Positions 7,549 through 11,221 of a DNA stretch of 38,060 nucleotides are shown one piece after another. A program made the translations under genes and the position numbers. The DNA lies in assembly GCA_945915475.1 (NCBI GenBank), contig CAMEFI010000029.1, positions 1-38,060 on the forward strand, given 5' to 3'. The DNA is from an uncultured Clostridium sp. Its GTDB lineage: Bacteria; Bacillota; Clostridia; Lachnospirales; Lachnospiraceae. Below the pieces are notes generated by a model. The model did not search any database. It saw only the letters and a program-made list of their open reading frames with translations, and was not told the origin of the DNA. How positions within the stretch are numbered: position 1 is the stretch's first letter; every line of letters begins with the position of its first letter.

Positions 7549-7959
7549 TCAGCTGTTATTGTTATTATTGTTGTTGTTATTATTATTGTTGCTGGAACTG
7601 CCGGAGCTGTCCCCGTGTGAACTGTGATAAGGACGCTCCACATTGAATGTATCTAACGTCATTTCCAACAGGTCAAAATGGGTATCATACACTTCTACGG
7701 GAAGGGTACGGATTCGTTTTCCTGCATAATCAAACCACTCCATATAATGATTGGAGATGGTAATCTTATTTGCCGGATGTTCTATCAGAAAGCAGTAGGT
7801 CTGCTTTATCAGTTCCTCGGATACATTTAAAATGTACTGGGACAGGCTGATGCTTTTTTTCATTGCTACTAATTCGTGATATGTTTCAGGAACTCCATTT
7901 TTCATATACATCTCCATTCTGCCGCCGATGTCGGCGACCATAATTGTAATATCATTCAT
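7549..7959 (-). CDS. Small protein with a Ser-rich and poly-Asn C-terminal tail (possible radical SAM substrate)
   Basis: I do not recognise the family. Residues 1 to about 112 look like a small mixed alpha/beta domain with a single Cys (TYCFLIEHP) and end in PYHSSHGD. The tail is SSGSSS, twelve consecutive Asn, then Ser and stop. The Asn codons are an irregular mix of AAC and AAT. The gene starts 11 bases after the radical SAM stop codon and is the last of three genes on this strand. A conserved leader-like domain plus a repetitive tail beside a SPASM enzyme suggests a modified-peptide precursor, but that is inference; it could also be a partner protein. The first ATG has no Shine-Dalgarno, so it may depend on translational coupling. 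An internal ATG at 7905 has GGAG upstream and would give a 118-residue protein. Confidence 0.6.
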   Translation of the reverse strand: MNDITIMVADIGGRMEMYMKNGVPETYHELVAMKKSISLSQYILNVSEELIKQTYCFLIEHPANKITISNHYMEWFDYAGKRIRTLPVEVYDTHFDLLEMTLDTFNVERPYHSSHGDSSGSSSNNNNNNNNNNNNS

Positions 7960-7970
7960 CTGATATCTGT

Positions 7971-9716
7971 CTACAGATAATAAAATTCTATATTCTGAAA
8001 AGGCAGGTTCATTGCCTGTATGTGGTAATATGCATTGTTTTTCTGCTTCAGGTAGTGATAGTCGCGCAGTGCCTGTGTTGTAAAGAACAGGTTATTCGGC
8101 TTTTGATCTGACAATTGTTCTTTGTAGAGAGAGAGCAGTCTGTTTAAATGCAAACAATAATAACCCTTTCGGGCAGATGGCTGGGCGGCAAGGGTACGGT
8201 AATAGACCTGATGAGTCATAATATGCTCCTGCTTGTTGCGTCCTTCATCTCCGTAGGTGACGCAGTCGCCGGAGAGAAGCATGATATATAGGCTGTTATT
8301 CACCGGATAGTCGCAAATCTGTTCCATGATTTCACATTTTACATAGAGCAATACATCCATTTCATCACACAGATAGAGGATATCCCGCTTCCCTTTTTGA
8401 ATCTGGGAGTGCAGTGGATAGGTATGCCCTCCCACTTCTATGATAAAGGCATCCGGACTGTAGACCAGTGCAAGGGAAGGATCCTGTTCAATCAGATCGG
8501 ATAAATGCGGAATATCTGACGGAATCATACACTCCTCCTGTGGACGGTATGCGGCAACCTCACCAGGGTGCATGGAACGGACATAAGAATATACATCGTC
8601 TGCCGTGGTATCGCTTGCAGGGTATTCCTCCGGGTGGTCTTCATAGATCGCTTGTTGAAGCTTACAGGTATAGGAGCAGTCTGTATGGTAGAACTGTTTT
8701 ACGAAAGGACAGCCGGTTCTGCAATAGCGGATGTAGCTGCATTTTCCGCAGGACTCATTTAATGGCACTGAGCTGTGGGCTTCATATATTTTTCGTTTTG
8801 CTTCTGAAAGAATCTCATCTACGGACTGATGATAGATATTTCCGTAATAGAATTCCGGATGCCCCTGTCCCCTTACACAGGAATAGATGTCACCGTTTCT
8901 TTCTAACAGGAAGAATTTTTCCCCGCAGTTATCACTTCCGGTGCAGTAGTCCGGTGTGAACTCGGCAAACCAGCTTTTCTGTAATCCGGGTTCTAGATGG
9001 GTTCCGGCAAATGCCTTCTGTATTTTTCGATAAAAGTCTACCTGTTCGGTATGAGATAGAGGTGTAAGCAAGTCATTTTCTCCTGCAAAACCGATCATGA
9101 AATTGAAGGCATTCATGTCTAAGCAGGTGTTGGTGTCCAGATAGCGGATGTCTTCTATTAATTCTTCGATATGTTTGTAATGTTCATGAAAAATGGTTGC
9201 TGATACTTTCTTACGGTTTGGCAGATCTTTTAGCAATTTTACATTCTTAAAAATACGGTCTAAGGTGTCTTGATCGTCCTTGGTTCTGCGGTATTTCCGA
9301 TGCAGGGAAAAAGGAAGATCCAGACTTCCGCTTACAATGACCCGGTAATCCCGGATGGCATCGATATGTCTATCAATACCATAGAGGTTTGTTTTAATAT
9401 GTGGATGAGGCAGTGGAAATCCCTGACTGACTATCATATTTTTATTTTTCTCATAATAATTCGAGATATAGGCAACAAGCTCCCGGAAATCGGCCTGGGA
9501 AAGGCAGGTAACCTCGCCGCCATGTAGGGAAATATTAAATGGTACAACTTTACTTTCTCTGAATTTATCCACAGCATAGGATAGTGTTTCAAGACAACCG
9601 TATGCACTTTGACAGTCTTCTGTATGTTCTTTCAGATAGCAGTAACGACATTGCATGTTACAGGCCATAGTTGGAACATAGAGCAGATGAATCATTTTGT
9701 ATTGGGATGGTTCCAT
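7971..9716 (-). CDS. Radical SAM / SPASM domain protein, probable peptide or protein maturase
   Basis: About 581 residues. The radical SAM cluster motif is CNMQCRYCY near the N-terminus (CX3CX2C, about residues 19-26), followed by SLHGGE, the GGE motif for SAM binding. The SPASM-type auxiliary cluster region holds a Cys-rich run (YSCVRG, then SCGKCSYIRYCRTGCPF and later DCSYTC) at about 290-365, typical of sactisynthase or anSME-like maturases. About 200 further residues at the C-terminus match nothing I know and may bind a partner. The start is ATG 9716, because AAGGAG lies 8 bases before it; a GTG at 9725 touches the Shine-Dalgarno. The gene lies 32 bases after the LRR gene and 11 bases before the poly-Asn gene, so the three are very likely one operon. 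Its substrate is unknown; the downstream small protein is the obvious candidate. Confidence 0.85.
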   Translation of the reverse strand: MEPSQYKMIHLLYVPTMACNMQCRYCYLKEHTEDCQSAYGCLETLSYAVDKFRESKVVPFNISLHGGEVTCLSQADFRELVAYISNYYEKNKNMIVSQGFPLPHPHIKTNLYGIDRHIDAIRDYRVIVSGSLDLPFSLHRKYRRTKDDQDTLDRIFKNVKLLKDLPNRKKVSATIFHEHYKHIEELIEDIRYLDTNTCLDMNAFNFMIGFAGENDLLTPLSHTEQVDFYRKIQKAFAGTHLEPGLQKSWFAEFTPDYCTGSDNCGEKFFLLERNGDIYSCVRGQGHPEFYYGNIYHQSVDEILSEAKRKIYEAHSSVPLNESCGKCSYIRYCRTGCPFVKQFYHTDCSYTCKLQQAIYEDHPEEYPASDTTADDVYSYVRSMHPGEVAAYRPQEECMIPSDIPHLSDLIEQDPSLALVYSPDAFIIEVGGHTYPLHSQIQKGKRDILYLCDEMDVLLYVKCEIMEQICDYPVNNSLYIMLLSGDCVTYGDEGRNKQEHIMTHQVYYRTLAAQPSARKGYYCLHLNRLLSLYKEQLSDQKPNNLFFTTQALRDYHYLKQKNNAYYHIQAMNLPFQNIEFYYL

Positions 9717-9748
9717 AGGCGACACTCCTTTGTATGCATCAGTTCGCG

Positions 9749-11221
9749 TTAGTTATAGTATAGAACAGTAGTTGGGCTTTCCTTAAATGCCCGTTCATTG
9801 ATGGAAGCTGTTGCAGGCACAATGATTTGCTGTAAGCTGTTGCATTGGCGAAAGGCAGAGCTGCCAATTTCAGTCACAGTAGGGGGAACCGTGACCTGTG
9901 AAAGGGAGGAACAGCCATAAAATGCGTGGGCTGCGATTCGGGTTACTCCATTTGGAATCACAATGGAGGTAAGAGAAGAGCAGTTTTCAAATGTATTCCC
10001 ACGGATTTCTGTTATGCCGGCAGGTAAGGTGATACTTGTGAGACTGTTACAACCCCTGAAACATTCACCATGAATCGTTGTCAGATGAGCCGGCAGAATC
10101 ACTGACCGGAGTAAACTGCAACCTTCAAATGTATTGCCGCGAAGTTCTGTCACCTGTGGGGGAATGGTAATGTCTGTCAGAACACTGCAATACATAAAAG
10201 CCTCTGCACCGATGCGGATAACCGAATCCGGCAGGGAGATGGTCTTTGCATGGTTATTGCCGTAAAATGCCTGTGTTCCGATTTCCGTGACCGGTTTTCC
10301 ATTATAAGTATCCGGAATTGTAATACTGGTTTCGTCTGTGTTCTGATAATGTACTAAAGTATAACCATCTTTATTTTCCTTGTATGAAGTAGGCTTTTTC
10401 CGAATTTTTTCCAGCGAATATACGCGGTTGTAGGAACGAAATAGTTTTTTGCCGGCTGAAAAGATATCTGCCGGGTTTCCTAGTGCAGGAATAAACATGC
10501 AAAGTATCACGATGATAGGCAGAAGGGAGTAAAAACTATTGTGGGGCTTGCTTTGAGGACTTCCGGTTGTCCGGGAAAAGGTGGTGCCTGCAGGGGTGAC
10601 ATACGGGTCAAGTGTTGGATCGTAGGTTGTGGTGTAAGTTTGACGCTCTGTGTCCGGTGTATGCTCTGTTGGGGAGACTTTTAAGGAAAGTCCGCTTTTA
10701 GATGACATATGAGTAGAAAAATCGGTGGCAAATGGCCAGTCAGCGGCATTTACCTGTTCCGGGGATACGGAGTAAGAAACCGGAGTAGGGTCGTAGTGAT
10801 ACTGTCCGCTTGTTATGTCAGCAAATATCTGTGACCAGTGACTGTACATATATGGCTCTGATGCCTGTTCCGGAAGGGGTTTTCCATAATGGCGTTCAAT
10901 CAGCTGCCGTATGGACCGATCCGGATTCTCCATTGCCTCCTTGGCAATCCACCCGGCAGTTCCGGATTGACTTTTTATTTTGCGAAAAGCAGAGAAGACG
11001 TATTTGCCCACCAGAATAATGGACAAAAGGGAGAAATAAGGAACGAATAGGGAGAGCGTAATTCCTAATAGGATGAGGATCAGGATGCCAATGATCCGTT
11101 TACGGGTATTGGCCTTTTCCTCCGGAATGGATAATGGTCCATAGTAACGTTCAAATAGATTCAGTTCCTGTTCCACAAGTGTCTTTAACAGTTCTTGTTC
11201 AGATTGCTTCTCATAGTTCAT
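9749..11221 (-). CDS. Membrane protein with BspA-type leucine-rich repeats
   Basis: This 490-residue protein has three parts. Residues 1-45 are a charged segment, followed by a long hydrophobic stretch (about 46-80, one or two helices). A Ser/Thr/Pro-rich linker runs to about residue 230, then comes another membrane helix (SLLPIIVILCMFIPAL). The C-terminal 160 residues contain about seven 23-residue LRR_5/BspA repeats of the form LPxxVTxIGxxAFxxCxSLTxIT. Such repeats usually bind proteins or host ligands. Topology is ambiguous: one N-terminal helix plus the second helix would place the LRRs in the cytoplasm, two plus one outside. It is the first gene of the operon with the radical SAM enzyme, so a scaffold, export or immunity role for the modified product is conceivable but unproven. 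GGAAAGGAAAG precedes the ATG. Confidence 0.75.
   Translation of the reverse strand: MNYEKQSEQELLKTLVEQELNLFERYYGPLSIPEEKANTRKRIIGILILILLGITLSLFVPYFSLLSIILVGKYVFSAFRKIKSQSGTAGWIAKEAMENPDRSIRQLIERHYGKPLPEQASEPYMYSHWSQIFADITSGQYHYDPTPVSYSVSPEQVNAADWPFATDFSTHMSSKSGLSLKVSPTEHTPDTERQTYTTTYDPTLDPYVTPAGTTFSRTTGSPQSKPHNSFYSLLPIIVILCMFIPALGNPADIFSAGKKLFRSYNRVYSLEKIRKKPTSYKENKDGYTLVHYQNTDETSITIPDTYNGKPVTEIGTQAFYGNNHAKTISLPDSVIRIGAEAFMYCSVLTDITIPPQVTELRGNTFEGCSLLRSVILPAHLTTIHGECFRGCNSLTSITLPAGITEIRGNTFENCSSLTSIVIPNGVTRIAAHAFYGCSSLSQVTVPPTVTEIGSSAFRQCNSLQQIIVPATASINERAFKESPTTVLYYN

Follow-up and report, generated by a model that had tools for sequence, protein, structure and literature searches.

A Radical SAM/SPASM Enzyme Family Paired with Poly-Asparagine Protein Ends in Gut Bacteria and Campylobacter Phages

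Introduction

Radical S-adenosylmethionine (SAM)/SPASM enzymes are known to us to act on Cys, on aromatic residues, on Val, or on short motifs of mixed residues. In the PapB-type, DynA, and AmcB-type systems, the substrate is encoded beside the enzyme, and Cys or aromatic residues are targeted; the radical SAM/SPASM enzyme MftC of mycofactocin acts at the extreme C-terminus of a short protein, on its Val-Tyr end. More generally, docking regions in ribosomally synthesized and post-translationally modified peptides (RiPPs) usually lie outside the modified residues. A precedent for a repetitive target, with one change made at several places of one chain, is the radical SAM/SPASM enzyme TvgB, which converts Val in TVGG repeats into cyclopropylglycine (PMC9062424). 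Here, we describe a locus in a stretch of 38,060 nt from an uncultured Clostridium sp. of the Lachnospiraceae (contig CAMEFI010000029.1, assembly GCA_945915475.1; the whole stretch is hereafter called the window), where a radical SAM/SPASM enzyme is encoded between a leucine-rich repeat (LRR) membrane protein and a small protein that closes with 12 Asn and one Ser. The difference from TvgB is that the repeated residue is Asn and not the Val of TVGG (PMC9062424).

The best NCBIfam equivalog and PDB matches of the window enzyme are anaerobic sulfatase maturases (anSMEs; TIGR03942, PDB 4k36-4k39), from which it is set apart by an extra C-terminal domain of about 185 residues and by the adjoining Asn-tail protein. 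We consider it likely that this enzyme family targets unstructured protein ends with Asn runs, in bacteria as well as in phages; that the enzyme would recognise and modify the Asn tail is the simplest reading of the bacterial and phage settings. No description of an Asn-tail radical SAM pair was found in the literature searched, a coverage that mostly excludes subscription papers, and the class of target, like the connection to phages, appears to be new.

Pairing of the Enzyme with an Asparagine Run

In the GTDB genome collection, 112 relatives of the enzyme were confirmed, and 80 of the 112 were retained. Pairing was scored over 80 loci, the window itself plus 79 relatives, which are L010, L011, and 77 of the retained loci; left out of the 79 were L012 (on the contig of L011), L082 (the locus of L010), and L080 and L086 (no complete enzyme open reading frame (ORF)). 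L031 and L032, which hold near-identical cassettes on two contigs of one metagenome-assembled genome (MAG), were counted as separate loci; the frame shift of L031 may be natural or an assembly fault. The enzyme alignment covers 74 of the 80 loci, and the small-protein alignment 52 of the 62 complete proteins.

Among the 80 loci examined, an Asn run of at least five residues was found within 600 nt downstream of the enzyme in all of the 72 that could be scored, the other eight having less than 450 nt between the enzyme and the contig end. As a control, 3 of 2640 600-nt tiles elsewhere in the same loci held such a run. A stricter count, requiring an ORF with the Asn run, gave 68 of the 79 relatives. 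These counts bear out the adjacent small gene that one looks for with a RiPP maturase in the broad sense, and the co-occurrence supports the suggestion, made in a preliminary description of the window, that the poly-Asn protein may be the substrate. The pairing is not an artefact of binning, since the complete genome of Lachnospiraceae bacterium GAM79 (L064) carries the same genes.

The distribution of the enzyme is patchy: the window genome is alone in carrying it among 26 genomes of its genus, is one of 3 in a family sample of 299 genomes, and is one of 2 in a phylum sample of 398 (profile search, E ≤ 1e-30). Judging by record titles, the relatives are nearly all MAGs, many of them of gut and rumen origin, with labels that include Bacilli, Clostridia, Lachnospiraceae, Oscillospiraceae, Bacteroidales, and Eggerthellaceae. 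Apart from the LRR and Asn-tail genes and a zinc-ribbon gene described below, every neighbour cluster is limited to at most 6 of the 79 loci, which means that the cassette sits in many different places. No cluster of a dedicated peptidase or exporter rises above this figure either, in a comparison where neighbours were not individually annotated and such genes could lie elsewhere.

Conservation of the Asparagine Tail

AlphaFold predicts a folded small protein from about residue 20 to 110 (pLDDT 89-97 per block of ten) and a tail without structure. Its start may be at Met19 (nt 7905), which would bring it in line with most relatives (about 116-130 aa long). For this protein, nothing over cut-off or below E 0.001 came from Pfam, NCBIfam, PHROGs, or PADLOC, and NCBIfam matches up to E 0.1 for the 52 aligned members are to single members alone.

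The N12 tract is the sole run of at least 8 Asn codons found in the 3.09 Mb window assembly (the reversed-pattern control matches the same tract and is not an independent one). Across 61 complete tails, the longest Asn run has 6-20 residues, with 12 or 13 in 28 of them. The residue after it is R in 23 tails, G in 8, H in 7, S in 5, and A in 4, while in 12 nothing comes after the run and in 2 it continues as an interrupted stretch; unlike the Val-Tyr end of MftC's substrate, the last residue varies or is missing, and it is Asn that is constant. The spacer before the run is GSSS or GGSS in 43 of 68 relatives, most others having other G/S-rich spacers, and Ser or Thr directly precedes most runs. 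Codons within the runs are mixed (AAT 474, AAC 369; 435 of 775 neighbouring pairs differ), so slippage does not explain them; together with the control tiles, this rules out an origin by slippage or by chance.

The tail is better conserved than the front: in 51 relatives, identity to the window protein is 12-37% (median 23%) for the front and 50-95% (median 84%) for the tail. The preliminary description had expected the reverse, a variable tail behind a conserved front, and the variable core and conserved leader of RiPP natural-product clusters are likewise not what is seen here; this inversion of the usual RiPP precursor favours one fixed function. No Cys occurs among the invariant or >90% conserved columns of the 52 small proteins, whereas a conserved Cys is expected of ranthipeptide and sactipeptide substrates, and the bacterial tails listed have no aromatic residue in their Asn runs; both features distinguish them from PapB-, DynA-, and AmcB-type substrates.

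Two side observations concern these tails. In L051 and L065 (Slackia/Eggerthellaceae), a longer acidic/Ser stretch precedes the Asn run, and the front is without the Thr-Tyr motif discussed below. Ten MAG contigs (L025, L027, L032, L034, L038, L041, L067, L077, L084, and L087) stop within or just past the Asn run, a likely result of the difficulty of assembling such tracts.

Asparagine-Ended Fibre-Like Proteins in Campylobacter Phages

A tblastn search with the window enzyme gave one match each among plasmid and phage records, both aligning over 98% of the query at 30.8% identity. The first is a Campylobacter coli plasmid record, where the match lies among phage tail genes; the second is Campylobacter phage CAM-P21. 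Invariant residues of the enzyme's C-terminal domain are common to the phage homologues. Two genes upstream of the enzyme in these matches lies a tail fibre gene whose product ends in APSGSTNNNNY. Viral contigs searched with the bacterial enzyme profile yielded no relative; searched with the phage enzyme, they yielded ten further loci (L104-L113), followed by L120 and L147 (L114-L119 are second copies of the L104-L110 loci and were not counted). The ends vary, some with a final Tyr (SGSTNNNNY, SNSTNNNNY, SSSTNNNNY, PSSTNNNNY, SGATNNNNY, and LGSSNNNNY) and others without (YSTGNNF, PSSGNNF, TSMGNNS, TSMGNNF, and SCNNNNN).

The upstream gene is annotated as tail fibre in CAM-P21 and has PHROG tail fibre matches in L102, L109, L111, and L120; in L110, L112, and L113, the protein at this position has a different body, assignable to no clear named tail-fibre family, and keeps the Asn end. 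Fifteen of the 381 distinct ORFs of at least 80 aa in the phage loci have NN or NNx as their last residues, and the fibre-position gene accounts for 14 of the 15.

It is these phage loci, and not the window, that provide the strongest evidence, with a comparison of loci that have and lack the enzyme. The fibre gene has 26 relatives on viral contigs: 7 of 7 with the enzyme behind them are Asn-ended, against 0 of 17 without it, two being cut off (Fisher p 2.9e-6, a value that ignores relatedness, several of the 17 being near-identical). Loci without the enzyme differ in the final part of the fibre, and their next gene encodes a protein of 164-168 aa instead of 210-211 aa, from which we conclude that the Asn end and the enzyme move together. 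In L144, the fibre gene is split.

Within the near-identical tail modules of L102-L108, a block of about eight codons (..FPEIAPNHFISQ.. vs ..FPEIASDHRMRQ..) differs before the constant Asn end; a diversity-generating origin of this block is not favoured, as the changes are not confined to A positions. In L112, the last part of the enzyme gene reads differently, and the neighbouring fibre-like gene keeps its Asn end. The abundance of radical SAM genes in another lineage of Campylobacter phages, that of CP220 and CPt10, has been termed "highly unusual" (PMC2853527); no phage of the CP220/CPt10 kind is among the matches of the present family.

The Asparagine Run as Probable Target

Taken as a target, the common element would be an unstructured protein end in which Gly/Ser/Thr is followed by an Asn run and, as a rule, by no more than one further residue. 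Gut bacteria would bear it on a dedicated small protein with a folded front, and Campylobacter (pro)phages would bear it as the terminus of a tail-fibre-like protein whose gene lies two upstream of that of the enzyme; the phage relatives support the tail itself as the target.

One has to keep in mind several observations that speak against this. Many loci are related, so the counts are not those of independent events. The Asn run of L031 is out of frame with the protein front, and that of L037 is interrupted and lies in no proper gene. On the phage side, the seven enzyme-bearing loci hold three fibre-end types; L137 offers only 566 nt after the fibre gene, and the absence of the enzyme is judged there from the next gene; in L130, which is one contig with L120, the enzyme gene is in two ORFs and the Asn end is still present; and the runs are short (2-5 Asn), which may mean a different chemistry. 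Finally, Thr26-Tyr27 of the small-protein front is also >90% conserved (52 rows), and the front could hold the modified residue.

This last point leads to the alternative that survives best, in which the Asn tail is a docking or assembly tag and the residue changed by the enzyme lies elsewhere, either within the folded front or on a partner protein. It would agree with the conserved Thr-Tyr pair and with the general habit of RiPPs to keep docking regions apart from modified residues. The phage fibre-like proteins, however, carry the same tail on different bodies, and no other residue common to all was seen; we regard a mere docking role as unlikely.

The Enzyme Family and Its Possible Chemistry

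The window enzyme is above the Pfam cut-offs for Radical_SAM (PF04055, E 3.2e-10) and SPASM (PF13186, E 8.1e-5) and the NCBIfam cut-off for TIGR04085 (SPASM), and the predicted structure shows the radical SAM and SPASM folds. The cysteines first noticed in the window, those of the CX3CX2C motif and of the SPASM set (C261, C267, C283, C326-X2-C329-X5-C335-X3-C339, and C354), are invariant in the 74 aligned rows, window included. The C-terminal domain holds conserved YGDExRxKQxH and NxFFTTxxLRxYHYxK...NLPF motifs, and Pfam, queried with residues 394-584 by themselves, matches nothing up to E 1.

No named sulfatase or RiPP maturase model of NCBIfam reaches its cut-off for this enzyme, in line with the early impression that the locus fits no known maturase/peptide pair. 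The best equivalog, TIGR03942, scores 92.1 bits against a cut-off of 349.45, and the neighbouring models (PapB-type ranthipeptide, DynA, and AmcB-type maturases) score 69-78 bits, all far below theirs. The phage homologue matches phrog_1802 ("radical SAM domain-containing protein") with 475 bits over its length, and the window enzyme matches the same PHROG with 109 bits; this PHROG has no known substrate, and its profile has little specificity, with matches at E ≤ 1e-20 in 344 of 398 genomes. Beyond radical SAM/SPASM, these sub-cut-off relatives, and phrog_1802, no enzyme family emerged from Pfam, NCBIfam, PHROGs, or PADLOC. A match to viperin (PADLOC pVip; 27.8 bits, E 4e-7) was discarded, as it covers positions 7-81 of the 257 of the profile alone. 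Judged by its sequence, the enzyme is a new, distinct family within the known radical SAM/SPASM superfamily, with its own C-terminal domain.

The likeness to anSMEs nevertheless raises a second alternative, namely that the enzyme is an oxidase of the anaerobic sulfatase maturase type, turning the Ser or Thr that stands before most runs into an oxidised residue such as formylglycine. The equivalog and PDB matches point that way. Its score is far below cut-off, though, and the position equivalent to Asp277 of anSMEcpe, which we take to be the catalytic Asp, is occupied by Val in 74 of 74 bacterial rows and by His in five aligned phage rows; sulfatase-type oxidation is therefore disfavoured and, as it would also leave runs of 12-20 Asn unexplained, seems to us quite improbable.

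Thioether chemistry is disfavoured as well, because the small proteins have no conserved Cys. This would leave the abstraction of hydrogen from Asn, leading to a cross-link, to epimerisation, or to oxidation. We infer that the tail is modified and that the site is Asn: the family-specific C-terminal domain probably holds the tail, and the 5'-deoxyadenosyl radical would take hydrogen from Asn residues, repeatedly along the run, with a fixed covalent change as the outcome. The product would remain part of a structural or membrane-associated protein and would not be released as an antibiotic.

The Window Locus and Accessory Genes

The three genes of the window form one operon-like row (Table 1). 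The gaps of 32 and 11 bases given in the preliminary description are borne out if the enzyme starts at ATG 9716, which is preceded by a GGAG-type ribosome site (with GTG 9725, the first gap is 23), and so are the small domain and the SSGSSS-N12-S tail of the last gene.

Table 1. Features of the Asn-tail cassette in the window.
Feature	Position (nt)	Strand	Remarks
LRR membrane protein	9749-11221	minus	490 aa; Pfam LRR_5 E 5.6e-62; BspA-type LRRs; putative accessory cassette member
Radical SAM/SPASM enzyme	7971-9725	minus	581 aa from ATG 9716; 584 aa from GTG 9725
CX3CX2C radical SAM cluster motif (C22, C26, C29)	9639-9662	minus	invariant, 74/74 aligned rows
SPASM region C261-C354	8664-8945	minus	invariant cysteines; structural match to anSMEcpe
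Family-specific C-terminal domain, about residues 400-584	7971-8528	minus	common to phage homologues
Small poly-Asn-tail protein	7549-7959	minus	called with 136 aa; start probably Met19 (nt 7905)
SSGSSS spacer	7591-7608	minus	directly before N12 run
N12 run	7555-7590	minus	mixed AAC/AAT codons; then one Ser and stop

An LRR gene lies directly upstream of the enzyme in 70 of 77 scorable relatives by motif count, or 71 of 77 with L073 added by eye, whose short LRR protein the count missed, as it could miss others. It is not adjacent in L019, L051, L065, L087, L089, and L092, all six of which keep the Asn run, and the motif scan detected no LRR protein in any of the 14 phage loci (no frame with more than 1 match, against 4-8 matches in three positive controls and 2 in a fourth, L073, so that a short LRR protein could escape). 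Most sampled LRR proteins have hydrophobic stretches (L044, short as called, has none), and the last repeat is well conserved among those compared. Pfam places a zinc ribbon ahead of the LRRs over cut-off in one of four LRR proteins and below threshold in three; it lists none for that of the window. The place given to the LRR protein in the system from the outset holds as to frequency, not as to necessity: from these loci, it looks to be a common but dispensable member of the cassette.

The cassette continues in 39 loci with a protein that has about 338 residues and carries zinc-ribbon cysteines. The window is without it, no gene of this family being found beside the operon, and weak matches occur elsewhere in the assembly (E 1.7e-5). 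A Tim44-like identity was considered and dropped, Pfam giving sub-threshold zinc ribbons and other weak matches. In the Bacteroidales-labelled L087, L089, and L092, the enzyme stands behind another protein, which presumably resembles a sugar-phosphate nucleotidyltransferase, with no adjoining LRR gene.

One could also take the LRR or the zinc-ribbon protein for the substrate and the poly-Asn protein for a helper, as the regular adjacency of the LRR gene and its conserved last repeat might invite one to do; the six relatives that lack the neighbour and keep the run, and the phage loci, make this very doubtful. In the explanation that we favour, where the Asn tail is the target, the LRR protein and, in many species, the zinc-ribbon protein would bind or display the modified tail.

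Conclusions

The range of run lengths (6-20) could suggest a neutral expansion of low complexity that hitch-hikes with the gene, a reading that is scarcely credible given the mixed codons, the conservation across distant bacteria and phages, and the way the Asn end accompanies the enzyme in phage modules.

Much new protein chemistry comes from radical SAM/SPASM enzymes, and an Asn homopolymer as the target would point to chemistry of a new kind. The phage link gives a testable role to at least one radical SAM gene of Campylobacter phages and suggests that the fibre ends of some phages may be chemically altered after translation. Going further, we tentatively raise the possibility, short of an even chance in our view, that a single radical SAM family turns poly-Asn ends into chemically hardened or cross-linked pieces, which would serve as functional tips both on phage fibre-like proteins and in a membrane-associated surface system of gut bacteria. 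If so, this would be a structural modification of proteins by a radical SAM enzyme, not the making of a natural product, and it would include the radical modification of a phage fibre. Thanks to the tail, the system should be easy to test, with one enzyme, one small protein, and one peptide.

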